Below, piece after piece: positions 22,868 to 36,160 of a DNA stretch of 64,000 nucleotides. The translations under genes were made by a program, and so were the position numbers. The notes under the pieces are model-generated. The model was not told the origin of the DNA. It worked only from the letters and a program-made list of their open reading frames with translations, and did no database searches. Within the stretch, counting starts at the first letter, position 1. Each line of letters begins with the position of its first letter. The stretch is taken from the NCBI RefSeq assembly GCF_027158205.1, contig NZ_JAPVLU010000004.1, positions 148,868 through 212,867 of the forward strand. Direction: 5' to 3'. Source of the stretch: Streptomyces sp. H39-S7. Its GTDB lineage: Bacteria > Actinomycetota > Actinomycetes > Streptomycetales > Streptomycetaceae.

Positions 22868-25800
22868 TCAGCGGCGGCGGACCAGGGGGAACGGCAGGGT
22901 CTCGCGGATCGAGCGGCCGGTAAGGAACATCACCAAGCGGTCGACGCCGATGCCCAGCCCCCCGGTCGGCGGCATCGCGTACTCCAGGGCGGTCAGGAAG
23001 TCCTCGTCCAGCTCCATCGCCTCGGCGTCACCGCCCGCCGCCAGCAGCGACTGCTCGGTGAGCCGGCGCCGCTGCTCCACCGGGTCGGTGAGCTCCGTGT
23101 AGGCGGTGCCCAGTTCGGTGCCGTACGCGACCAGGTCCCAGCGCTCCGCGAGCCGGGGGTCGCCGCGGTGCTGCCGGGTGAGCGGGGAGACGTCCAGCGG
23201 GAAGTCCTTGTAGAACGTCGGGAGGGTGGTGCGCTCCTCGACCAGCCGCTCGTACATCTCCAGCACGATGTCGCCGCGCCCGTCGCCGGGGGAGTGCGGC
23301 ACGCCCGCGCGGTCGCAGAGCCGCCGCAGCGCCTCGGGCGGGGTGTCGGCGGTGACCTCCTCACCGAGCGCCTGCGAGATCGCGTCGTTGACGGTCCGCA
23401 CCGGCCACAGTCCCGACAGGTCGACGTCACCGCCGTCCCGGCGGGCGGTCTGCGAGCCGTTGGCGGCGGTCGCGGCCCGCTGGATCAGCTCACGGGTCAG
23501 GTCCAGCATCGTGTCGTAGTCGGCGTAGGCCTGGTACGCCTCCAGCATCGTGAACTCGGGGTTGTGCTTGTACGACACGCCCTCGTTGCGGAAGGTGCGG
23601 CCGAGTTCGAAGACCTTCTCGACACCGCCGACGCAGAGCCGTTTGAGGTACAGCTCCGGGGCGATGCGCAGGTACAGGTCCAGGTCGTAGGCGTTGATGT
23701 GGGTGGTGAACGGGCGGGCGTTGGCGCCTCCGTGCACCGGCTGCAGCATCGGCGTCTCGACCTCCAGGTACCCGCGGTCCACCAGCGACTCGCGCACCGA
23801 GTGCACCGCCGCGCTGCGGGCCCGCAGCACGTCTCGGGCGTCGGGCCTGACCACCAGGTCGAGGTAGCGCTGCCGGACCCGGGCCTCCGGATCGGTCAGG
23901 CCGCGCCGCTTGTCGGGCAGCGGGTGCAGGCACTTGGCGTTCAGCCGCCACGTGTGCGCGTCGGCGGTCACCTCGCCGGCCCGGCTCACGCCCATCACGG
24001 CCTCGAAGCCCAGCAGGTCGCCCAGGTCGACGTCGGCGGCGAAGGAGCGCATCCCGGCAGTGGTGAAGCGGTCGCGGTCCAGCAGGATCTGCAGGTCGCC
24101 CGACCAGTCCCGCAGCGTCACGAAGAGCACGCCGCCGTGGTCGCGCAGCCGCAGCACCCGCCCCGCCAGCCGTACCCCGGTGCCGGCGGGCGCCGCCGCG
24201 GCGGCGGCCAGGGTGTGCGTCGGCTCGACGCCGGGCGGGTACGGGTCGCTCTCCGCTTCCCGCAGCCGTTCCAGCTTCCGCAGCCTGACGCGCACCTGCT
24301 CCGGGCGTCCGGGGCCGGCCGACCGGCCCGGCCCGGCCGCCGACAGGTCGGCGGCGGCCTCCGCGGCCTCCTCCAGCGGGATGAACACCGGCATCGCGGC
24401 CGGGACCTCCGCGCCGCCCCGGTCCCGCCAGAAGCGCAGCCGCGGCATCTCCACGAAACCCTCCGCGATACCGGAGGCCAGGCCGATACGGGCCAGGTCC
24501 TTCGCCTCCGAGTAGCAGAGGAAGCGCGGGTACCACTGCGGCTGGTACTTCACGTTCGACCGGTACAGCGCCTCCAGCTGCCACCACCGGGAGAAGAAGA
24601 GCAGCAGCCGCCGCCACAGCCGCAGCACCGGCCCCGCACCGATCCTGGCGCCCTCCTCGAAGACCGAGCGGAAGACCGCGAAGTTCAGCGAGATCTGCCG
24701 GATGCCGAGCCGGGGCGACTGCGCGGCCAGCTCCGTCACCATGAACTCCATGATCCCGTTGGGTGCGGCGGGATCGCGCCGCATGACGTCCAGTGAGACC
24801 CCGGCCCGGCCCCACGGCGCGAACGACAGGAGCGCGATGACCTGTCCCGCGTCGTCCAGCGCCTCCACCAGCAGGCAGTCGCCGTCCGCGGGGTCGCCGA
24901 GCCGGCCCAGCGCCATCGAGAAGCCGCGCTCGGTGTCGGTGCCGCGCCAGGCGTCCGCCCGCGCCACCACCTCGCTCAGCTCCTCGGCCGACAGCTCGCG
25001 GTGGCGGCGGATCCGGCTCGTCGCACCGGTGCGCCGCACCCGGTTGACGGCCTGTCGGGTGCCGCGCATCTCGCGGCCTCCCAGATCGAAGCCGCCGACC
25101 TCCAGCACCGCCTCGTCGCCCAGCTCCAGGGCGCCGAGACCGGCCCGCGAGTACGCCTTCGCGCCCTCCTCGCCCGCGCCCATCACGGCCGGCACCCACC
25201 CGTACCGCGCCGCGTGCTCCTGCCACGCCTCGATGGCGGGGCCCCACGCCTCGGTGTCGCCCAGCGGATCACCACTGGCCAGGCAGACGCCCATCTCGAC
25301 GCGGAAGGTGATGGCGGCCTTGCCGCTGGACGAGAAGACCACGGACTTGTCGCGCCGGGTGGCGAAGTAGCCGAGTGAGTCCTGCTCCCCGTACTTCGCC
25401 AGCAGGGCGCGGATCCGCGGCTCGTCGTCGCCGTGCAGCGCCGCTTCGACCTTCTGCGAGCGGAACAGCGCGGCGGCGCCGGCGAGCAGGGCGAGCGCGC
25501 CGAACAGACCGAGCCAGAAGTTGGTCCAGAAGGGTGGATGGCCGATGCCGGACGGCAGGTCGTTGACGCCGCCGACCACCCGGTTGACCGACCAGCGCAG
25601 CCGGTCCTTCCCGACGAGGGTGCCGGGGAACACCGACAGCAGCGCCCAGCCGGCCAGGACGCCGGCCACCAGGCCCAGCACCAGCACCAGCAGCGCCCGC
25701 CAGAACGCGCCCTTGCGCACCCGCGCGGAGAACTCACCGCGCGCGATCACCAGCACGGCGAGCGCCGTGCCGGTGATCAGCAGCGCGGGTACGGCGCTCC

Positions 25801-26101
25801 ACTCCGAGAAGAAGATCAGCACCACGTTCGCCAGGACCGTCAGCCCGAGGAGCACCACGACGATCCAGTAGGCCACCCGCTTGCGCGCCGCCAGCGCCCC
25901 GGCCAGCAGCATCAGGAACGCCGCGTAGGCGAGGTTCGCGGATGCCGGCACCGTCAGGATCTCGATCCAGCGGAGCACGGGACGGAGGAGGCGGTGCAGG
26001 GGGCCGATGACGGCGAGTACGGCGCAGAACACGGCGAGCGCGGCGAAGAACTCCCCGAACCACTCCGGTACCGAGCGTTTCCAGCGGGGTTGTTCCTCCA
26101 T
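22868..26101 (-). CDS. lysX: Bifunctional lysyl-phosphatidylglycerol synthase / lysyl-tRNA synthetase
   Basis: This roughly 1077-aa fusion protein charges tRNA-Lys and transfers lysine to phosphatidylglycerol, making the membrane less negative. An N-terminal block of about six membrane helices (residues 1-190) is followed by a DUF2156/MprF-type transferase domain (about 200-520; SLGYFATRRDKSVVFS, ALGRLGDPADGDCLLVEAL, ISLNFAVFRSVFEEG, YQPQWYPRFLCY), an OB-fold anticodon-binding domain (VRLAGRVLRLRDHGG) and a class II LysRS core with motif 2 FRNEG and motif 3 GIGVDRLVMFLTGR. The architecture is that of actinobacterial LysX, a factor for resistance to cationic peptides. Start at 26101 is the first ATG in good context. 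It is followed by unrelated genes, and a partial paralogue lies at 26998-29613. Confidence 0.94.
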   Translation of the reverse strand: MEEQPRWKRSVPEWFGEFFAALAVFCAVLAVIGPLHRLLRPVLRWIEILTVPASANLAYAAFLMLLAGALAARKRVAYWIVVVLLGLTVLANVVLIFFSEWSAVPALLITGTALAVLVIARGEFSARVRKGAFWRALLVLVLGLVAGVLAGWALLSVFPGTLVGKDRLRWSVNRVVGGVNDLPSGIGHPPFWTNFWLGLFGALALLAGAAALFRSQKVEAALHGDDEPRIRALLAKYGEQDSLGYFATRRDKSVVFSSSGKAAITFRVEMGVCLASGDPLGDTEAWGPAIEAWQEHAARYGWVPAVMGAGEEGAKAYSRAGLGALELGDEAVLEVGGFDLGGREMRGTRQAVNRVRRTGATSRIRRHRELSAEELSEVVARADAWRGTDTERGFSMALGRLGDPADGDCLLVEALDDAGQVIALLSFAPWGRAGVSLDVMRRDPAAPNGIMEFMVTELAAQSPRLGIRQISLNFAVFRSVFEEGARIGAGPVLRLWRRLLLFFSRWWQLEALYRSNVKYQPQWYPRFLCYSEAKDLARIGLASGIAEGFVEMPRLRFWRDRGGAEVPAAMPVFIPLEEAAEAAADLSAAGPGRSAGPGRPEQVRVRLRKLERLREAESDPYPPGVEPTHTLAAAAAAPAGTGVRLAGRVLRLRDHGGVLFVTLRDWSGDLQILLDRDRFTTAGMRSFAADVDLGDLLGFEAVMGVSRAGEVTADAHTWRLNAKCLHPLPDKRRGLTDPEARVRQRYLDLVVRPDARDVLRARSAAVHSVRESLVDRGYLEVETPMLQPVHGGANARPFTTHINAYDLDLYLRIAPELYLKRLCVGGVEKVFELGRTFRNEGVSYKHNPEFTMLEAYQAYADYDTMLDLTRELIQRAATAANGSQTARRDGGDVDLSGLWPVRTVNDAISQALGEEVTADTPPEALRRLCDRAGVPHSPGDGRGDIVLEMYERLVEERTTLPTFYKDFPLDVSPLTRQHRGDPRLAERWDLVAYGTELGTAYTELTDPVEQRRRLTEQSLLAAGGDAEAMELDEDFLTALEYAMPPTGGLGIGVDRLVMFLTGRSIRETLPFPLVRRR

Positions 26102-26172
26102 ACGACCATGCTGGCCGCCCCCGGGGTTTCCGCAACCGGACACCCCGGCCCGCGCCCTCCGGTGGGCGGGCC

Positions 26173-26811
26173 TCAGTCGTCGTCGCCCCGGGTCCGGCGG
26201 CGCCGGCGCAGGACGACCGTCCCGGTCAGCGCGGCGGCGACGAGGGCGGCGCCCAGCGCGGTCTCCGCGGGGTTCATGCCGATGCCGCCGCCGAGGCCCG
26301 TCTGCACGCCGCCCCTGGGGGTGCGGGACGAGACGGTGAGGGTTCCGGTGAACGAGCCCTCCTTGGGCGCGGAACCGTTCTTGCAGGTCACCGTGACCTC
26401 GTACTCACCCGGCTGGGTGCCCTCCGGGATCGTGCCGACGCCGCCGACCTGGTTGTCGAGCATCGAGAGGGTGACCGGGGGGATGACGGAACCGCCCGCG
26501 GTGGACCGGAACGTGGCGACGCCGGACGTGCCGGTGCAGTTGCCGCCGTCGAACACGGAGAACTGGCCGCCGGGGGCGACCGGGTTCGGCTGGACGATGA
26601 CGGGGTTGGCGGGCACCACCGGCTTGAGGGGTACGGCGGGCGAGGTGAGTTCGGCGGGCTCGGTGGGCTGCAGGAGCTCGGCGGGCGCCGAGGGCTCTAC
26701 GGACTCGACGGGGACGACGGGCTCGGGTGACACGGCTGACGCGGCTCCCGCCGGGCTCAGCGCGATGACCGCGGCGAGGGCGGGGGCGGCGAGTAGGTGC
26801 TGTGAGCGCAT
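26173..26811 (-). CDS. Secreted surface protein with C-terminal membrane anchor (possible sortase substrate)
   Basis: This 212-aa protein has a signal peptide (MRSQHLLAAPALAAVIAL to AASA), a Pro/Glu/Val-rich stretch of about 45 residues, a beta-rich Ig-like domain with two Cys (NCTGTSG and VTCKNG), and a C-terminal tail RGGVQTGLGG, then a hydrophobic helix and RRRRR. This end resembles C-termini of actinobacterial exported proteins often found near class F sortase genes, but no classical LPXTG is visible, so anchoring by sortase is only a suggestion. GGGAGAG precedes the ATG. It lies upstream of lysX in the same direction; a sortase gene is 3 kb away on the same strand. Confidence 0.8.
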   Translation of the reverse strand: MRSQHLLAAPALAAVIALSPAGAASAVSPEPVVPVESVEPSAPAELLQPTEPAELTSPAVPLKPVVPANPVIVQPNPVAPGGQFSVFDGGNCTGTSGVATFRSTAGGSVIPPVTLSMLDNQVGGVGTIPEGTQPGEYEVTVTCKNGSAPKEGSFTGTLTVSSRTPRGGVQTGLGGGIGMNPAETALGAALVAAALTGTVVLRRRRRTRGDDD

Positions 26812-26997: not shown

Positions 26998-29613
26998 TCA
27001 GGACCGGATGTCGGCGTCACCGCCGCCCGGGTGAACGGGCCCGGCCGCCGCCGGCGCCGGTGCCCCGCCCAGCCGCGGCAGGCGCGGCGCCGTCAGGAAG
27101 CCCTCGGCCATGGCGGTGGCGGCGGCGATCCGGGGCAGCTCGGCGGACCGCTCGTACAGCAGATGGCGCGGGCGCCACTGCGGCAGGTAGGCGGCGTAGG
27201 AGCGGTAGCGGGCCTCCAGGTGCCAGCGGCGGGAGAGCAGCCGGAGAACCTTGCGCCACAGCCGCAGCAGCGGGCCGGCGCCGGCCTTGCCGTCCTCCTC
27301 GAAGACCGAGCGGAAGACGGCGAAGTTGAGGGAGATCCGCTCGACGCCCCGCACCGGTTCGGCGTCCGCCCGCGCCAGCAGCAGCAGTTCGGTGATCAGG
27401 TAGTCGATGAGCGCCCTGCCGGACTCGCGGTCGCGGCGCATCAGGTCGAGGCAGAGGCCCCGCCGGCCCCACGGCACGAAGCTCAGCAGCGCCGAGGTCC
27501 GCCCCTGCGGGTCGCGGCACTCCACCATCACGCAGTCGCCGTCCGCCGGATCGCCCAGCCGGCCCAGCGCCACCGAGAAGCCGCGTTCGCCGGGGTGCCG
27601 CCGCCAGGCGTCGGCGAGATGGGTCAGACCGGCCATCTCCTCGCGGGGGATGTCGCGGTGGCGGCGTACGACGGCGGTGTAGCCGGCGTCGCGGATCAGC
27701 CCGCGGGCCTCCCGCAGCGGACGCAACGCCGCACGGCCGTCCGCGCCCTCCTCCGACATGCCCAGATACGTTCCGGCGAACTCGGCGACGTCGACCACCG
27801 CCTCGTCGCCGAAGTCCAGCGACTTCAGTCCGGCCTGTTCGTAGACGGCCGCGGCGCCCCCGCCGGTCCCGGTGACGGCCGGGATCCAGGCGTGCCGGCG
27901 GGCATCGGCCAGCCAGCCGTCGATCGCCGCCGGCCACTGCGCGCGGTCGCCGATCGGATCCCCGGAGGCCAGCGCCACCCCGTTGACCACCCGGTACAGC
28001 ACGGCGGCCCGGCCGTCGGGGGACCAGCTCACCGACTTGTCACGGCGCAGCGCGAAGTACCCGATCGGGTCGTGCTCGCCGTGCTCGGCGAGCAGTTCGC
28101 GCAGCCGGAGCTCGTCCGACGGTTCGAGCCTGGCGCGGCCGCGCGGGGAGCGGAAGAAGGCGAGCAGCACCATCAGCATCAGGGTGACGCTCAGCAGGTT
28201 GACGGCGAGGTCGGTCCAGCCGGGCACGGTGATCTCGGGCAGGTCGAACAGACTGGAGACGGTGAGCACGCGCAGCACGGCGTAGTGCAGGCAGGCGCGC
28301 CAACTCGCGGGCGGCGCTTCGTCCGTGGCGTGCACCAGGACGGTGCCCAGGCCCACCGCGACGACGCTGCCGATCAGCAGCGAGACCATTCCGAGGGCGA
28401 CGTTGCCGCGCTCGCCCCGCACGTTGAACGCCCGCCGGGAGACGAGCAGGGAGAGCGCCAGCAGCAGGGTGAGGCCGCCGGAGATCCAGTTGAAGGGGTG
28501 CGTGCGGGCCTCGGGGAGCAGATCGATCGCCAGCGCGCACAGCGCCAGGTATCCCCAGACCAGCGTTACGGCGACGATCCAGGACGCGCGCTTGCGGCGG
28601 CGCAGGGTCACCGCGAGCAGGAAGGCCAGGGCGGCGCCGGTGAATCCCGGGCTCAGCAGGAAGGCGGTGAAGAACTCCCCGTTGGTGGCCCGGTGCACCC
28701 GTTCGCGGAAAGGCGCGATCAGTCCGGTGAGGACGTTCACCACGGCGGCGGCCCGCAGGTACCAGACGGCGATCGCCGCCCCGGGCTCCTGCAGCGGCCG
28801 CAGCCACACCTCGATCCGGGACGGCGGGATGTCGACCAGGGTGGGGCGGGGCACGGGGGCGCTCTCGGACTTCGACTTCAGGTGCGGGGCGCCCGCGACC
28901 GCGTCCATCAGGGTGGTCTTGAACGCCACCAGCCGCCGGTGGACGCGGTCCTCGCGGCGCTCGGAGCGGGCCAGCCGCCGGGGCCGGGAGAGGTAGCGCC
29001 AGCGCGACCAGGGGCTGGCCGGCCGGGCCAGCCGCAGCGCCCCGATGATCGCGACCGGCGGCATCATCACGCCGATCAGCCCGGTCCACACCTTGCCCTT
29101 GATCAGGCAGATGACCACGAAGCCCAGCAGGACCGCCGCGACCCCGATCTGCTCGCCGCTGACCCCGCCGACGAAGCCGCCCAGCGGGGCCTCCCCGATG
29201 AGCAGCAGACCGATCACCGCGACGGCGAGGATCACCGCGTCCACGGACTTGCGGCCCTGCTCGCTCCAGTAGACGTCCTCCAGGTGCAGGACGAGGGCGA
29301 ACTCGTCGAGCACCAGCCCGCAGCCGATGCCGAACAGCACGGCCAGGAGGTTGTGCGCGACGACACCGCCGCGTACCGCGAAGGAGCCGATGCCGCCGAT
29401 GAGCATCATGGCCTGGCCGAAGACGACGTGGTGGATGTGCAGGCCGCCCGGGTTGACGTTCCCCGGCCACCAGCTCACGCCCCGCCTGATCATCCGCACG
29501 CTGAAGCGGATGAAGAGGAAGGACCCGATCAACCCGACGAGCAGCAGGAAGAGCGGTTCGCGGCCGTTGTCGACGATCCGCGACCGGTAGGCGTCGGCCA
29601 ACCAGTCCCACAT
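26998..29613 (-). CDS. DUF2156 (MprF-like) membrane protein with an extra N-terminal membrane domain
   Basis: This 871-aa polytopic protein is not a simple LysX copy. Its C-terminal 330 residues are a DUF2156 aminoacyl-phosphatidylglycerol transferase domain (DPIGYFALRRDKSVSW, ALGRLGDPADGDCVMVE, ISLNFAVFRSVFEED, YLPQWRPRHLLY) closely patterned on that of lysX, preceded by the usual transmembrane block (about 270-480). In front of this is a separate membrane domain of about 200 residues with conserved polar residues within helices (GLHIHHVVFG, and LDEFALVLHLEDVYW), a family seen as stand-alone actinobacterial membrane proteins. No tRNA-synthetase domain is present. It may transfer an amino acid to a lipid, or have lost that role. 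GAGGTG lies before the ATG. Confidence 0.88.
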   Translation of the reverse strand: MWDWLADAYRSRIVDNGREPLFLLLVGLIGSFLFIRFSVRMIRRGVSWWPGNVNPGGLHIHHVVFGQAMMLIGGIGSFAVRGGVVAHNLLAVLFGIGCGLVLDEFALVLHLEDVYWSEQGRKSVDAVILAVAVIGLLLIGEAPLGGFVGGVSGEQIGVAAVLLGFVVICLIKGKVWTGLIGVMMPPVAIIGALRLARPASPWSRWRYLSRPRRLARSERREDRVHRRLVAFKTTLMDAVAGAPHLKSKSESAPVPRPTLVDIPPSRIEVWLRPLQEPGAAIAVWYLRAAAVVNVLTGLIAPFRERVHRATNGEFFTAFLLSPGFTGAALAFLLAVTLRRRKRASWIVAVTLVWGYLALCALAIDLLPEARTHPFNWISGGLTLLLALSLLVSRRAFNVRGERGNVALGMVSLLIGSVVAVGLGTVLVHATDEAPPASWRACLHYAVLRVLTVSSLFDLPEITVPGWTDLAVNLLSVTLMLMVLLAFFRSPRGRARLEPSDELRLRELLAEHGEHDPIGYFALRRDKSVSWSPDGRAAVLYRVVNGVALASGDPIGDRAQWPAAIDGWLADARRHAWIPAVTGTGGGAAAVYEQAGLKSLDFGDEAVVDVAEFAGTYLGMSEEGADGRAALRPLREARGLIRDAGYTAVVRRHRDIPREEMAGLTHLADAWRRHPGERGFSVALGRLGDPADGDCVMVECRDPQGRTSALLSFVPWGRRGLCLDLMRRDRESGRALIDYLITELLLLARADAEPVRGVERISLNFAVFRSVFEEDGKAGAGPLLRLWRKVLRLLSRRWHLEARYRSYAAYLPQWRPRHLLYERSAELPRIAAATAMAEGFLTAPRLPRLGGAPAPAAAGPVHPGGGDADIRS

Positions 29614-29841: not shown

Positions 29842-30570
29842 TCAGGCGGGTCCGGCGGAGCCGGTGAGCCGGGCGTAGACCACGACGTTGGCCAGGTATC
29901 CCGCCGCCTTGCTGAACTCCCCGCCGCAGGTGATCACCCGCAGCTCGGCGTCGGGCGTCGCGCCGTACACCCGTTCGGTGGGGAACTCCCGCTTGTCGTA
30001 GACCTCGATGCCGTACACCGTGAACACGGCGGTACGGCCGTCCGCGCGGTCGACCTCGATCCGGTCGCCCTTGTGCAGCCCGCCCAGCCGGTAGAAGACG
30101 GCGGGGCCCTCGCGGGTGTCCACGTGCCCGGCGAGTACGGCCCCGCCCGGCGCGCCGGGCGCGGCCCCGCCCGCGTACCAGCCGGCCAGCGGCCGCTCGG
30201 TCTCCGGCGGCGTCTGCAGCCGGCCGGCGGCGTCGAGTCCGAGCCGCATGAGGGACGCGTCCACCCCGATGGCCGGGATCCGGATCCGTTCGGGGTCGGC
30301 GGCGGCCAGCGGGGTCGCGCGCGGCGGCAGGACGGCCTCCTGCGGCCTGCCGCCGTCCGGGTTCCGCCCGGCCGTGGAGACCGCGTCGGCCGCGGTGGGC
30401 AGCGGCGGCTCCCGCTCCTGCGTGCCGTCGCGCAGCAGCCAGACGCCGGTCACCACCGTGACCGCGAGGATGCCCGCCGCCATCCGGCCGACGCGGTGCG
30501 ACGGCGGACGCCGTGCATCGTCGCGCGCGCCGTCCGGCGCGTCCGGGGGACGGTAGTGCGGCAGTGGCAT
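29842..30570 (-). CDS. Class F sortase
   Basis: This 242-aa membrane-bound transpeptidase has a cytoplasmic N-terminus, one membrane helix (about residues 28-46), a Pro-rich stalk and a sortase barrel from about residue 95. The catalytic His is H149 in AGHVDTREG and the Cys is C215 in RVITCGGEF, the class F (SrtF, actinobacterial) pattern; IRIPAIGVDASL at the domain start is typical. Sortases join surface proteins to the wall or to each other. AGGAGG precedes the ATG at 30570. It has its own terminator, so is a single-gene unit. The protein at 26173-26811 could be a substrate. Confidence 0.92.
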   Translation of the reverse strand: MPLPHYRPPDAPDGARDDARRPPSHRVGRMAAGILAVTVVTGVWLLRDGTQEREPPLPTAADAVSTAGRNPDGGRPQEAVLPPRATPLAAADPERIRIPAIGVDASLMRLGLDAAGRLQTPPETERPLAGWYAGGAAPGAPGGAVLAGHVDTREGPAVFYRLGGLHKGDRIEVDRADGRTAVFTVYGIEVYDKREFPTERVYGATPDAELRVITCGGEFSKAAGYLANVVVYARLTGSAGPA

Positions 30571-30853: not shown

Positions 30854-31471
30854 TCAGGCCGGGGAGGTCGTGGGGGTCGGCGCGGGAGCGGACGGGCGGG
30901 CGGCGGAGCGGGCCGCCCGGATGCAGGCCCACAGCAGCACGTCGGGGCCGGGGAGCCACGGCTGACGGGTGTCGGGTGCCACCACCCAGCGCGACGACCC
31001 GCCCTCGGTGTCCAGGCCGGTCTCGTCGCCGTACAGCGGCGGCACGGTCACCGCGTCCCCCGGCCCGTGGCACATCAGCGGCGGTACCGAGTGGCTCCAC
31101 TCCTCCCAGCCCAGCAGTGACGGCAGCCGCTGGGCGCACCCGGGAGCGACCAGCAGGAGCACCCGGCCGCGGTGCAGCGCCACCGGCCCGCTCCCGGGCC
31201 CCGAGGCCCACAGCTGCTCCAGCACCCGGCGGCCGAAGAGCGCGGGGAGGTTCACCACGTCGAAGACGGTGCCGCACGGCAGCACGCTGGGCGCCGTCGG
31301 GCGGGCGCTCCACAGTGCCTGGACGCTGCGTGGGAAAGCGCTGGCGGAGGCGAGCCACTCCGCGCCCGCCGGGGTGACGTACGCGGTGTGCGACTGCCGT
31401 TCGGGATCCATCGGGTCACCGGCCACGCCGAAGTCCGGGTGCCTCCAGGTCTCCCACTGCCATTCGCTCAT
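30854..31471 (-). CDS. Uncharacterised protein resembling part of a DNA primase/polymerase domain
   Basis: This 205-aa protein starts at an ATG preceded by CTCTAGG. I do not recognise a defined function. The segment CGTVFDVVNLPALFGRRVLEQL, GPVALHRGRVLLLVAPG and AVTVPPLY follows the order seen in the archaeo-eukaryotic primase-like (Prim-Pol) domains of actinobacterial proteins, but the acidic catalytic pair of active primases is not obvious. So it may be a degenerate Prim-Pol fold with another role. The C-terminus is Pro/Ala/Thr-rich. It lies alone between tRNA-Lys and the nuclease/helicase operon, on the same strand. Confidence 0.7.
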   Translation of the reverse strand: MSEWQWETWRHPDFGVAGDPMDPERQSHTAYVTPAGAEWLASASAFPRSVQALWSARPTAPSVLPCGTVFDVVNLPALFGRRVLEQLWASGPGSGPVALHRGRVLLLVAPGCAQRLPSLLGWEEWSHSVPPLMCHGPGDAVTVPPLYGDETGLDTEGGSSRWVVAPDTRQPWLPGPDVLLWACIRAARSAARPSAPAPTPTTSPA

Positions 31472-31580
31472 ACACCTAGAGGTACCGGCCGATCGCGCTG
31501 TGTCGAAGTGAATCGGACGAATACGGGACAGGAACAACGCTCATCCGGTACCTTGCGCAACCCGCATATGCCAAAGGCCC

Positions 31581-32088: not shown

Positions 32089-33471
32089 CTACGTCCGGTA
32101 GGGGACCCGGTGCTCGTCCAGGTGCGCCAGAACGGCGTGGTTGGCCTCCCAGCCGTCGGGGAACTTCACCGTCACGCCGAGCTGCACCGGTTCGGTCGAC
32201 GGATGCTCGTCCAGCAGCCGGGCCACGCCCGCCCGGCAGACCACGATGCAGGCGTGCCGGTGCCGGGAGGCGAGCACGCACAGCCGGCCCGTCTCCAGGT
32301 GGAAGGCCGTCGCGTCCGGACGGCCGGACAGCGGGTGCAGGAAGACCGTCACGTCGAACTCCCGGCCCTGCAGCCGGTTCGCGGTGTCCACGGCGACCCC
32401 GGCCACGCCCAGCGCGGTGAGCGCCGACCGCACCGCCGCCGCCTGGTCGCGGTGGGCCGTGCCGACGGCGATCCGGTCCGCGGTCAGCGGCGACGGCTCC
32501 TGCGAGCGCTCGCTGAACGTCACCCCGCCCCGGTCCAGCAGCCGCCGCACCACCAGGGCCACCGCGTGCACCGCCTCGGGATCCGTCCGGGGAGTGTGCC
32601 GGGCCGGCAGCTCCAGCAGCCCCCAACCCGACGCGGCCGCCTCGTCCAGCACCTCGTCGGGGCCCGTGCCCTGCGAGGGCACTCCGAAGGACAGCCGCCG
32701 GACGCCGGGCCCGGTGCCGCTGCGGAACGGCGTGTACGGGTAGAACGCCCGCGACACCAGCGGCGCCGCCGACGCCGGGAGCCGCCACGACACCGGCAGC
32801 CGGTGCTGCGGGAGCCCTGGGTTGTGCGCCAGCAGCGTCACCACCGCGCTCGCCGACGGGTCGTAACTCAGCCCCGCCCACTGGTCGGCGCCCACCACGC
32901 TGAACGGGTCCAGCTGCCCGGGGTCACCGACGAACAGCGCCCGTTCGAAGAGCCCGGCCACCTGGAGCAGCGCGTCCGAACGCATTTGGTACGCCTCGTC
33001 GACGATCGCGTGCCTCCAGGGCGACGTCAGGTCGGTGGTCTTGACGTACGCCCACTTCGCCGAGGTCGCGATCACCACCTTCTGCTGGGCGAGATCGGCC
33101 ACCTTCGCGGACTTCACGATCGACGGATGCCGGTCGAGCAGCGGATCGGGCGGCGACTCCGCGCCGTGCAACCGTCCGATCGCCAGTCCGGGATCGGCGG
33201 TCGCCAACCGGTCCGCGAGGTCGTCCACCTGCGCGTTCGTCTGCGCGACGACCATCAACGACTCGCCCGCCGCGGCCAGTTCCTGCGCGGCGCGCACCAC
33301 GAGCGTCGACTTGCCGGCGCCCGGCGGGGAGTCGACGACGACACCGCGCGACGACCCGTGGAGCGTGTCGCGCAGGATCGCCTCCGTGACCGCCGCCGCC
33401 TCGGCCGCGGGGTCGCGCGGAGCGGGGCGGGCCGAACCGTGGGGCGGTGAGTCCTCCGTCGTGCGGCTCAC
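32089..33471 (-). CDS. Compact superfamily 1 (Dna2/Upf1-like) helicase
   Basis: This 460-aa ATPase has all main SF1B motifs: Walker A SPPGAGKST (about 48-56), Walker B IVDEAYQ (about 156-162), motif III VGDPGQLDPF (181-190), a motif IV-like SWRLP, motif V DTANRLQGREFDVTVF and motif VI LCVLASRHRHACIVV. The core is unusually short; the accessory 1B beta-barrel and stalk of Dna2 or RecD-like enzymes have little room. The GTG overlaps the stop codon of the preceding gene (GTGA), so it is co-translated with it. With the upstream Fe-S nuclease this suggests a DNA end-processing machine. It is the third of three overlapping genes. Confidence 0.88.
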   Translation of the reverse strand: MSRTTEDSPPHGSARPAPRDPAAEAAAVTEAILRDTLHGSSRGVVVDSPPGAGKSTLVVRAAQELAAAGESLMVVAQTNAQVDDLADRLATADPGLAIGRLHGAESPPDPLLDRHPSIVKSAKVADLAQQKVVIATSAKWAYVKTTDLTSPWRHAIVDEAYQMRSDALLQVAGLFERALFVGDPGQLDPFSVVGADQWAGLSYDPSASAVVTLLAHNPGLPQHRLPVSWRLPASAAPLVSRAFYPYTPFRSGTGPGVRRLSFGVPSQGTGPDEVLDEAAASGWGLLELPARHTPRTDPEAVHAVALVVRRLLDRGGVTFSERSQEPSPLTADRIAVGTAHRDQAAAVRSALTALGVAGVAVDTANRLQGREFDVTVFLHPLSGRPDATAFHLETGRLCVLASRHRHACIVVCRAGVARLLDEHPSTEPVQLGVTVKFPDGWEANHAVLAHLDEHRVPYRT

Positions 33472-35030
33472 AGGAAGTCCTCCACGGTGACGGGATCGGG
33501 TGCGGGGGCGGCCGGCGGGGCGGCGGACTGCGGCGGGCCGCCGTGCGTCCACGGCGTGTCCTCGGGGTCGGGCAGCTCGGGACCGCCGCGCGGCGCGTGC
33601 TCGAACAGCGTCCAGCACACGAGGTCGCCGGCGGCGGGCACGGATCCCTCGTCGGGGACCTTGCCGCGGCCCATGCCGTTCAGCAGCCGCACCGTGACCT
33701 CGCCCGGCGCGGGCCACTCCACGAAGCGCGCCTCCTGGGTCTTCCCACCGGGCAGCGCGCGGTAGAGCTTCGCGTCGGTGTCGAAGTGCGGCACGTCCGC
33801 GGTCGCGACCGTCACCAGCGGGCGCGGGCGCGGCACCTTCGCCTCGCTGTACGCCATCACCACGTCGGTGACCTCGCCCGCGAACGCCTCGCCGGACAGC
33901 CGCCGGCCGGCCATCACCAGCGGATCGTCCAACGCCTCCTGCGCCTCCAGCCGCACCTGGGCCGTCTCCCGGCCCATCAGTTTCTGCGCGGCGGCGATGG
34001 CGTCGTCGCGCTTCGGCTGCGGCGGCTCACCGGCCCGCACCCGGTCCCGGTGCGCGGTGAACGACCAGCGGTCCCGCTTCCAGCGCTCCTCGACGTGCCC
34101 GCCCTCGGGCAGCGCCCGCAGCAGGTCGAGCCCGCGCCACACATCGTCCCAGGTCGGCCGCAACTGACTCTCGACAAGCCCCCGCACCTCGGCCTCGGCG
34201 ACGGCGGTCGCGGGGGTCCGCTCCTCGCCCGCCGCCCGCGCCGCCGCGCGGGCCGCGTCGAAGCGGGACATCGCGGGGGCCAGCACCGTGTTGTCGAAGG
34301 CGGGGTCGGTCGCCGGGCCCGCGGGCGGGCTCAGCAGCAGGCCGTCGGCGCCGCGCCCGGTCTCCGCGCGGCGGGCCGCCTCCGCGCCGGTCATGTCCTC
34401 GGGAGGGTCGATCCAGCCGAGCAGCGCGCCCAGGTGCTGGTCCTCCAGATTGCTCTGGCCGGTCGCCCAGTGGCGCGACAGCAGCTCCGTCATCGACAGC
34501 AGCAGGCAGGCGCCGGGTGTGCGGGCGCGCTCCCCGTACTGCGTCAGCCAGCGCCCGGCCAGCGGGACCCGCGACGGCACGGGGTAGGGCTCGTCGGGAT
34601 TCTCCTCCGCCGTGCGGCGGAAGCGGGTGGAGCGGCCGAGCAGCCGGACGTAGTCGGCCGCCGCGGCGTTCGGCACGATGATCTGCGGGGCGTCCGCGCA
34701 GACCTCGGACTCCTCGCGGTTGCGTGTCGCCGGTTCGGTCTCGACCTCGTCCGCGTACCGGTCCATGTGCGCGACGACCGTGGTCGCCAGCGCCGCGAGG
34801 AAGTCGAACCGCAGGTCCCGGTCGCGCGGCTGCGGCACCACCAGGAGGCTCGGCGCCTTCCGGTCGCGGCCCATCAGCGCGCCCAGCGGCGCGCCGACCT
34901 CGCCCGCCGTGGTCAGCGGCACGAACACCAGGGGATGCGGCGACAGGTGCCGGTGCCTGACCGTCGCCAACGGCTGCGCGCGGCCCGCGACCACGGCCTC
35001 GGCCCGCGCCAGGGTCCCGATCAGCGACAT
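33468..35030 (-). CDS. Uncharacterised 520-aa protein between nuclease and helicase
   Basis: I do not recognise this protein. It starts at an ATG inside the end of the nuclease gene (10-bp overlap) with GGGAGGTG upstream, and its stop overlaps the helicase start, so a stoichiometric complex is likely. The N-terminal part is alpha/beta with PLTTAGEVGAPLGALMGRD and PSLLVVPQPRDRDLRFDFL; the middle is helical; the C-terminal 100 residues are beta-rich (LVTVATADVPHFDTDAKLYR, EVTVRLLNGMGRGKVPDEG, AGDLVCWTLFEH) and could be an OB fold or beta-barrel. No catalytic motifs are evident. A role as a DNA-binding or bridging subunit is inference. Confidence 0.8.
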   Translation of the reverse strand: MSLIGTLARAEAVVAGRAQPLATVRHRHLSPHPLVFVPLTTAGEVGAPLGALMGRDRKAPSLLVVPQPRDRDLRFDFLAALATTVVAHMDRYADEVETEPATRNREESEVCADAPQIIVPNAAAADYVRLLGRSTRFRRTAEENPDEPYPVPSRVPLAGRWLTQYGERARTPGACLLLSMTELLSRHWATGQSNLEDQHLGALLGWIDPPEDMTGAEAARRAETGRGADGLLLSPPAGPATDPAFDNTVLAPAMSRFDAARAAARAAGEERTPATAVAEAEVRGLVESQLRPTWDDVWRGLDLLRALPEGGHVEERWKRDRWSFTAHRDRVRAGEPPQPKRDDAIAAAQKLMGRETAQVRLEAQEALDDPLVMAGRRLSGEAFAGEVTDVVMAYSEAKVPRPRPLVTVATADVPHFDTDAKLYRALPGGKTQEARFVEWPAPGEVTVRLLNGMGRGKVPDEGSVPAAGDLVCWTLFEHAPRGGPELPDPEDTPWTHGGPPQSAAPPAAPAPDPVTVEDFL

Positions 35031-36160
35031 CCGGCACCTCCCGCGGCGAGCGCCTCGGCGCGCAGGACGGCGGCGCGGCGCAGCGCGGCGACGGCCGGAT
35101 CCGCCGCGGCGCTCGCCGCGTCGGTGCCCCGGGCGGCGGACAGCACGGCCTCGACCGTGGTGAGGGTGCCCAGTTCACCGCGCAGACCCCGGCCCAGGGA
35201 CTCGACGGAGCCGCAGGCGCGGGAGCGGCCGCGGCAGTGGAAGGCCAGCTCGCAGGCGGCCAGGCACTCGGGGGAGTACGCGGCGGGGAGCGCCTCGACG
35301 GCGGCGGTCAGCTCGGGGGCCGGCCGGGTCGGCGTCCGGCCGTCCTCGGACCAGCGCAGGTCGAACGTGGTGCCGTCCGGCAGTTCCGCGGCGATCTCCT
35401 CGATACGCGTCAGCCGGGTGAGCTGCCGCCGGGTCACCGACAGCTGCTTGCGCACGTCGACGAACTGGGCGGTGGGCAGGTTGGAGAAGTCCTTGGGGCA
35501 CACCAGCAGCACATCGTGCGAGACCCGCACAGGACCCGGTGTCTCCTCCAGCGTCGGCGCCAGCCGTTCCAGCGCCAGCACGTAGACGGCGGCCTGGCGG
35601 GCGGCGGCGCCCACCTTCACCGAGTCCGCGCCGCCGTCCAGGATCGGGAAGGACTTGACCTCGACGACCGTCCAGCCGCCGTCCGGCGCGACCGCCACCG
35701 CGTCCGGCTCCAGGTAGGCGGTCGAGCCCGCCACGTCCAGCGTCAGCAGGGGGTGGTCCAGCAGCGTCCAGCAGCCGGCGGTGGTCGCCTCCGCGAGGGC
35801 CAGCCGGGTCCTGGCCGTACGGCCCTCGGGGCCGGCGGCCGACAGGTCCGGCAGCAGCGCGCCGCTGTCCTCGGGGGCGCCCAGCAGCCGCAGCAGCTCG
35901 GCGCACTTCTCCGCCTTGACCCGGGCCTCGAAGGCATGGCCGCGGGCGAAGGCGAACTGGGACTGCCCGAAGGGGGCGGGCGCGCCCAGCACCTGCGCGA
36001 CCGCCCCCTTGTCGATCCCGGCGGCGTCGAGCAGGGCCCGGCGGCGGCAGCCGGGGTTCGCGGCCAGGGCCGCGAGGGCCCGCGCGTCGAGCGGACGTGG
36101 TGGTGTGGCCGGTCCGCGCAACTCGGCCAGCCGCTCCCGCAGATAGTGCGTAGTGCTCAC
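35021..36160 (-). CDS. RecB/Cas4/AddB-like nuclease with iron-sulfur cysteines
   Basis: This 379-aa protein carries a PD-(D/E)XK nuclease domain of the RecB type: H75 in GHAFEARV, D153 in LEPDAVAV, E167 and K169 in VVEVKSF, and the Q189-x3-Y193 motif RQAAVYV. A single Cys upstream (C38, NPGCRRR) and a C-terminal group C299, C303, C309 and C316 (ECLAACELAFHCRGRSRAC) reproduce the split cysteine arrangement that holds a 4Fe-4S cluster in Cas4, AddB and Dna2. It should cut single-stranded DNA ends. The start is a GTG; it is 21 bp downstream of the PAP2 gene. No cas genes or CRISPR arrays are nearby, so a Cas4 role in adaptation is unlikely. Confidence 0.87.
   Translation of the reverse strand: MSTTHYLRERLAELRGPATPPRPLDARALAALAANPGCRRRALLDAAGIDKGAVAQVLGAPAPFGQSQFAFARGHAFEARVKAEKCAELLRLLGAPEDSGALLPDLSAAGPEGRTARTRLALAEATTAGCWTLLDHPLLTLDVAGSTAYLEPDAVAVAPDGGWTVVEVKSFPILDGGADSVKVGAAARQAAVYVLALERLAPTLEETPGPVRVSHDVLLVCPKDFSNLPTAQFVDVRKQLSVTRRQLTRLTRIEEIAAELPDGTTFDLRWSEDGRTPTRPAPELTAAVEALPAAYSPECLAACELAFHCRGRSRACGSVESLGRGLRGELGTLTTVEAVLSAARGTDAASAAADPAVAALRRAAVLRAEALAAGGAGCR

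Follow-up and report, generated by a model that had tools for sequence, protein, structure and literature searches.

An undescribed actinobacterial membrane domain with an invariant His and acidic site, fused to a decaying LysX-type DUF2156 half in Streptomyces sp. H39-S7

The window analysed here is a stretch of 64,000 nucleotides, and this work will focus on one gene within it and on the genes beside it (Table 1). A preliminary description, made from the DNA letters, had claimed an open reading frame for a DUF2156 lipid aminoacyl-transferase, a separate membrane domain ahead of the MprF-like part, and a full LysX 0.9 kb away. We find all of these in place. LPG_synthase_C (DUF2156, PF09924) is matched with 225.3 bits against a Pfam cut-off of 27.5, and tRNA-synt_2_TM matches residues 280-484 with 40 bits. 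Residues 1-250 have no Pfam match; the membrane domain that lies there, which we will call the N-domain, is found as a stand-alone protein elsewhere. It carries GLHIHHVVFG at residues 57-66 and LDEFALVLHLEDVYW at residues 102-116 of the translation. LysX is separated from the fusion gene by 855 bases.

Table 1. The fusion gene, its parts and its neighbours (positions in the window)
Feature	Positions	Strand	Remark
Whole fusion ORF, 871 aa, ATG at 29613	26998..29613	-	open frame
N-terminal membrane domain, residues 1-245, undescribed family, stand-alone elsewhere	28879..29613	-	
HxHH motif: H59, H61, H62	29428..29439	-	invariant 84/84
D103-E104, near cytosolic end of TM3	29302..29307	-	invariant 84/84
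D113-V-Y-W116, loop after TM3	29266..29277	-	invariant 84/84
LysX-type transmembrane region, residues 265-490	28144..28821	-	PF16995 match 280-484
DUF2156 / LPG_synthase_C domain, residues 495-845	27079..28131	-	PF09924 match 505-820; MprF fold in model
Ala808 (GCC), at the position of essential K806 of S. aureus MprF	27190..27192	-	
Intact LysX, K806-equivalent Lys kept	22868..26143	-	NF002821, 1,622 bits
Small secreted-looking protein, C-terminal hydrophobic segment, Arg-rich tail	26173..26811	-	no Pfam match
Sortase, upstream same-strand neighbour of the fusion gene	29842..30570	-	PF04203, 86 bits

The small secreted-looking protein gene sits between the fusion gene and LysX. The sortase gene is on the other side of the fusion gene, and another family also has sortases encoded close to its MprF-like and N-domain genes (L042, L043). 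In Streptomyces fildesensis and in Streptomyces sp. PH10-H1 a further MprF-like DUF2156 gene, of 855 and 981 aa, sits between the sortase and the fused gene (L054 4002-7968, L055 5036-7981); in S. fildesensis it is joined by a 461-aa esterase (PF00756), and the present genome has no such MprF-like gene. The window also holds a match to the bifunctional DNA primase/polymerase N-terminal domain at 30854-31537 (PF09250, 34 bits), which lies between the sortase region and a module of three same-strand, partly overlapping genes at 32089-36160. Two genes of this module are conserved beside the fused gene in relatives, and its first gene is P-loop ATPase or helicase-like, with weak PADLOC matches to MkoA/MkoC. 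The genome as a whole has only four PF09924 matches, and its two further DUF2156 proteins, on contigs C57 and C80, are both without an N-domain.

By sequence and by model alike, the C-terminal half of the fusion protein is a DUF2156 homologue. Its likeness to LysX lies in the transmembrane region and DUF2156 domain, which together (residues 280-844) match positions 20-573 of the 1,102 in the LysX model NF002821 with 498.6 bits, and in a synthase that is predicted to be cytosolic. The fusion differs from LysX in having an extra N-terminal membrane domain, in losing the residue equivalent to K806, and in lacking a lysyl-tRNA synthetase: there is no tRNA-synt_2 match, and NCBIfam shows no tRNA synthetase. 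It resembles MprF in that the full-length model (pLDDT 69.9) reaches a target-normalised TM-score of 0.76 against 4v36, and 5vrv and 4v34 are matched in fold as well. The N-domain has no match to a flippase model in Pfam or NCBIfam. The NF002821 score is below the cut-off of 742, and the score against the bifunctional MprF model NF033480, 118.4 bits, is below its cut-off of 600. Because both equivalog cut-offs are missed and the essential lysine is gone, we do not class the fusion protein as a working MprF or LysX.

It is also useful to compare LysX2 (Rv1619) of Mycobacterium tuberculosis. As the available part of that report has it (PMC8974105), LysX2 has a DUF2156 domain but no tRNA synthetase, and its genome encodes LysX as well; in these respects the two proteins are alike. 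The LysX2 domain lies outside the membrane by PhoA/LacZ fusions, whereas the DUF2156 domain of the fusion is predicted to be cytosolic from its positive-inside charge pattern. That same part of the report describes no N-terminal HxHH domain for LysX2. An inverted topology of the LysX2 type was considered for the fusion and was judged unlikely on the charge distribution.

According to the portion of the mutational study at hand (PMC2774229), S. aureus MprF requires K547, K621, E624, D731, R734 and K806, and changing K806 to Ala abolishes Lys-PG synthesis. K621 and E624 are uninformative here because they are already replaced in LysX. When K547, D731, R734 and K806 are scored in the fusion protein, the first three are present and K806 is not. 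The preliminary description had said that predicted loss of the substrate pocket would count against it, and such predicted loss is partial: the K806 equivalent is Ala808, but K526, D723 and R726 are kept, along with E676 for the important E685. A lysine occupies the K806 position in all four aligned solved homologues, in LysX, and in the C57 and C80 proteins. Among 30 distinct fused proteins (33 rows minus three duplicates) the position holds Lys in five, all from the Kitasatospora group (L058, L060, L061, L062, L064), Arg in one (L063), and in the other 24 it is a different residue or a gap; K547 has been substituted or is absent in 11, and D731 substituted in three. The Kitasatospora group keeps the scored catalytic residues. 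All five new fused proteins from further genomes are without the lysine, as is L146, a near-copy of L054 that was left out of the five, and the G050 synthase has Ala there when read by eye. Of ten DUF2156 proteins whose genes are close to stand-alone N-domain genes, all ten keep K547, D731, R734 and K806. These residues are also kept in five DUF2156 proteins from L035-L037, L083 and L093, and the L119 protein, which belongs to another subgroup and has no DK motif, keeps the Lys at the K806 position.

The fusion of N-domain and DUF2156 protein arose once, ancestrally. Fused N-domains form a single clade in the tree (SH-aLRT 99), and so do the fused synthases, which are sister to the C57-type proteins; genes of that type are convergent to stand-alone N-domain genes in L035-L037. 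The 32 genomes of the genus that were examined have exactly one N-domain match each, with 24 in frames of 802-1201 aa, one shortened (G022) and seven stand-alone. One of the 24, G050 (L150), has its synthase in another frame than its N-domain, through either a frameshift or an assembly error. The shortened protein (L050 7163-8419) is about 419 aa long and has lost the transmembrane region and about half of the synthase, with the N-domain kept. Kitasatospora strains MAA4, mediocidica and GAS204B have one fused copy and a second, stand-alone one. L062, recorded as Saccharothrix sp. ST-888, falls with the Kitasatospora sequences in both trees and is probably misnamed.

After the fusion the constraint on the two halves was reversed, and the synthase decayed in the lineage of the present genome. 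With L063 and L050 excluded from both sets of pairs, which are not independent, the synthase half is the better conserved one in 10 of 10 pairs among the five proteins that keep K806 (mean 84% vs 76% for the N-terminal half), and in 3 of 253 pairs among the 23 that have lost it (58% vs 78%). The decaying synthase halves are not neutral. Their dN/dS (NG86) runs from 0.16 to 0.50 over the 13 K806-lost pairs tried, and in 12 of these it exceeds the value for the N-terminal half, the exception being L103/L101. The present genome's own group is at an early stage of decay: against its nearest relatives the synthase half has a dN/dS of 0.17-0.26, the N-domain one of 0.05-0.20, and the synthase domain of LysX from these genomes one of roughly 0.07-0.17. 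With these values and with K526, E676, D723 and R726 kept, the synthase is therefore still under constraint and could have changed its activity instead of losing it.

This bears on the suggestion, made in the preliminary description, that the protein has another substrate and couples two membrane reactions. In its full form the argument is that the synthase still works, on another acceptor or with another amino acid, and that its product undergoes a further reaction in the membrane, catalysed by the N-terminal half. The Kitasatospora group, with its scored residues intact and its synthase half the better conserved, fits such a bifunctional enzyme, and the group studied here loses only K806 among the scored positions while its dN/dS stays well below 1. 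DUF2156 lipid acceptors do vary; LysX, for instance, makes lysyl-diacylglycerol in Corynebacterium pseudotuberculosis and two mycobacteria, as the consulted part of that work reports (PMC10580965). However, K806 to Ala is the very change that abolished Lys-PG synthesis in the S. aureus enzyme (PMC2774229, in part), the lysine is present in the solved homologues, in LysX and in the two remaining paralogues of the genome, and many fused relatives lose more residues, one of them the transmembrane region and half of the synthase. We regard a bifunctional enzyme as unlikely in general. In the present genome the K806 equivalent is lost and the synthase half is decaying clade-wide, and two coupled reactions are therefore unlikely there, the suggestion being unsupported for this protein; in the Kitasatospora group such coupling is possible.

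A synthase that has lost its catalytic lysine suggests that the N-terminal half is the part still at work. By literature searches and by Pfam and NCBIfam scans, this half belongs to an undescribed family. No Pfam or NCBIfam model covers it in the 32 members scanned, where the most frequent of the scattered weak matches are to DUF7555 (7 of 32, best E 7e-4) and a PEP-CTERM model (10 of 32, best E 0.013), and the literature searched on DUF2156 and on MprF/LysX in Streptomyces and Actinobacteria held nothing on the fusion or the N-domain. The preliminary description had proposed a search for the N-domain as a stand-alone protein, and such proteins turn up in many Actinomycetota genomes. The domain is present in 39 of 41 near-relative genomes, this one counted, and in 43 of 118 class-level genomes, about a third, at E <= 1e-8 with a single query. 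The 46 loci in named genomes comprise 12 fused and 34 stand-alone cases. In viral contigs none of 106 candidate stretches was confirmed to hold it.

The conservation of the N-domain centres on a few motifs. R36, H59, H61, H62, G66, L100, D103, E104, L111, D113, V114, Y115, W116 and G120 are invariant across all 84 homologues in the alignment, a set that extends to relatives of 156-183 aa that have just the first three or four TM segments in common. E118 and R121 are invariant in the closer 32 homologues and variable in those short relatives. The family signature can be written GGxHhHHxxxG...LxxDExAL...LxDVYWxxxGR. Judged from the alignment, which includes proteins at 30-45% identity, conservation of the motifs goes far beyond chance, and the earlier reading of the His and acidic residues as a putative metal or catalytic site is consistent with their invariance. 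The short relatives (L045-L048, L122 5977-6462, L123 5785-6336) retain the HxHH/DE/DVYW site. In Streptomyces sp. SGAir0924 the gene of a short relative shares 4 bp with an alpha/beta hydrolase gene.

The AlphaFold2 model of the N-domain (mean pLDDT 78.7, pTM 0.69) places H59 immediately ahead of TM2, H61/H62 where that helix starts, and D103/E104 near the end of TM3; D113, Y115 and W116 fall in the loop after TM3, which is modelled at low confidence. In this model the conserved His and acidic residues share one side of the membrane. They had been described as buried, which needs one refinement: the modelled residues are not deep inside helices. Over 32 sequences the mean net charge is +4.5 for residues 36-60 and +11 for residues 193-240, and the charges around helices 283-488 of the fusion fit a cytosolic synthase domain. 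From these positive loops and helix charges we conclude that the conserved site most likely faces the cytosol. Fold searches returned little. A PDB sequence search with the N-domain profile gave chance matches only (E 0.93 and above), Foldseek of the model against the PDB gave none at E <= 0.001 (best E 0.65), and a BFVD fold search gave nothing below E 1. VIA-align matches to transporter helix bundles, with Z up to 9.0, were set aside, as such Z values are common for helical models. There being no trustworthy fold match, the case for metal binding is made from the residue pattern.

The lipocone superfamily (VanZ, PTDSS1/2 and others) is a natural comparison. The part of the lipocone survey available to us (PMC12419801) describes small helical domains with predicted head-group chemistry, a site that combines a helix-2 His with acidic residues of helices 3 and 4, and a predicted action of the membrane forms on the outer leaflet. 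The residue pattern of the N-domain is only loosely similar to this, and its site is on the cytosolic side, in contrast to that predicted outer-leaflet action. An hhalign comparison of the N-domain profile with a VanZ profile of our own making, VanZ being the sole lipocone family compared, gave a probability of 0.1. DUF2238 occurs in none of 60 genomes.

The genetic link between the N-domain and the lipid AMINOACYL-TRANSFERASES goes beyond the fusion. A stand-alone N-domain gene overlaps LysX by 4 bp in a Pseudonocardia MAG (L093), another overlaps the gene for a 717-aa DUF2156 protein by 4 bp on a Rhodococcus qingshengii plasmid (L119), and in Rhizocola (L083) the N-domain gene is 24 bp from a divergent LysX. 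Reading the matches by eye and omitting the present genome, we found a DUF2156 match no more than 10 kb from the N-domain gene in 9 of 42 class-level genomes, where about 0.34 are expected. In seven of these nine the two genes are convergent and at most 1.1 kb apart (0.08 expected within 1.5 kb), although these close pairs are not phylogenetically independent, five coming from one genus and two from another. A search with our own profile found a DUF2156 gene in the stretch of 7 of 49 stand-alone loci (L035, L036, L037, L041, L042, L083 and L093, out of L035-L048, L051 and L065-L098), and a 137-aa DUF2156 fragment in that of L090. In the other 33 of the 42 genomes no DUF2156 gene lies as close as 10 kb to the gene for the N-domain, and therefore the partnership is not obligate.

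One could argue from those 33 genomes that the N-domain has a housekeeping role unrelated to aminoacyl lipids, with the fusion and the neighbourhoods as by-products of gene order in a few lineages. Most stand-alone copies do sit elsewhere: in Rhodococcus and Tsukamurella the gene lies between tex and rplS, with lepB nearby, and in Streptacidiphilus it goes with ThrE exporter and NlpC/P60 genes, neither context having a DUF2156 gene. No common operon partner of the stand-alone genes was found, and their neighbours vary by lineage. However, the pairing is far above expectation, and it recurs in separate lineages, with different DUF2156 subfamilies and in fused, overlapping, divergent and convergent arrangements, which makes a housekeeping role quite unlikely in our opinion. 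In most Streptacidiphilus loci and those of the second Kitasatospora copies the order is a ThrE-type threonine/serine exporter, then the N-domain gene, then NlpC/P60 (L067 6247-10209).

The main rival for the N-domain is that it is no enzyme at all. It would be a translocator of aminoacyl lipids between leaflets or a dock for the synthase, with the polar site coupling protons or binding a head group. MprF-type enzymes combine a synthase with a flippase (PMC8974105, in the part available), what weak resemblance the model shows is to helix bundles of transporters, and the occurrence of the domain beside several DUF2156 subfamilies fits a general accessory protein. But that resemblance does not rise above noise (best Foldseek E 0.65), the synthase already has LysX-type TM regions beside it, and the compact H-x-H-H / D-E / D-V-Y-W cluster is at one face with nothing comparable at the other. 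We consider a translocating or docking role somewhat unlikely. For the C-terminal half the main rival is the altered but active synthase discussed above.

The reading we prefer, which we put at about an even chance from the sequence evidence, is that the N-domain is a metalloenzyme of the membrane whose substrates come from the lipid pool of DUF2156 enzymes and that the synthase half is becoming a pseudoenzyme. The fusion joins two membrane proteins that are adjacent elsewhere, a 245-aa member of an undescribed actinobacterial family and a LysX-type DUF2156 transferase. The N-domain would bind a metal through H59, H61 and H62 together with D103, E104 and D113 at the cytosolic face, and catalyse a reaction, in the simplest case hydrolysis or exchange, at the head group of the lipids that DUF2156 enzymes use or make. 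In Actinomycetota this pool may be diacylglycerol rather than PG, given the lysyl-diacylglycerol that LysX makes in C. pseudotuberculosis and the two mycobacteria. The synthase half, having no K806-equivalent lysine, would be silent or nearly so, transferring no amino acid, and may be kept as a lipid-binding, partner-binding or regulatory pseudoenzyme. N-terminal activity would then be the target of selection in this lineage. The broader claim, that the N-domain founds a new Actinomycetota family of membrane metalloenzymes working on aminoacylated lipids or their acceptors in the cytosolic leaflet, and that the fused synthase became a directing or regulating pseudoenzyme after it lost the lysine, is possible but doubtful.

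Aminoacyl lipids determine membrane charge and tolerance to cationic peptides, and to our knowledge little has been learned about their turnover in Actinomycetota. We believe the N-domain family, with its presence in 43 of 118 genomes, its invariant site and its link to the synthase, is a candidate for a missing step in that turnover. The fused proteins, intact in Kitasatospora and decaying in the genus of the present genome, also offer a natural experiment in how an enzyme domain turns into a pseudoenzyme once it is tied to a partner; if the pseudoenzyme reading is right, living species show the successive stages from an active to an eroded enzyme. Outside the fused series, at L041 4385-7612 and L119 3851-6004, in two unrelated genera, the N-domain gene is paired with a further DUF2156 subgroup, whose proteins have a different long membrane region (with a weak Rhomboid match in L041) and no DK motif.
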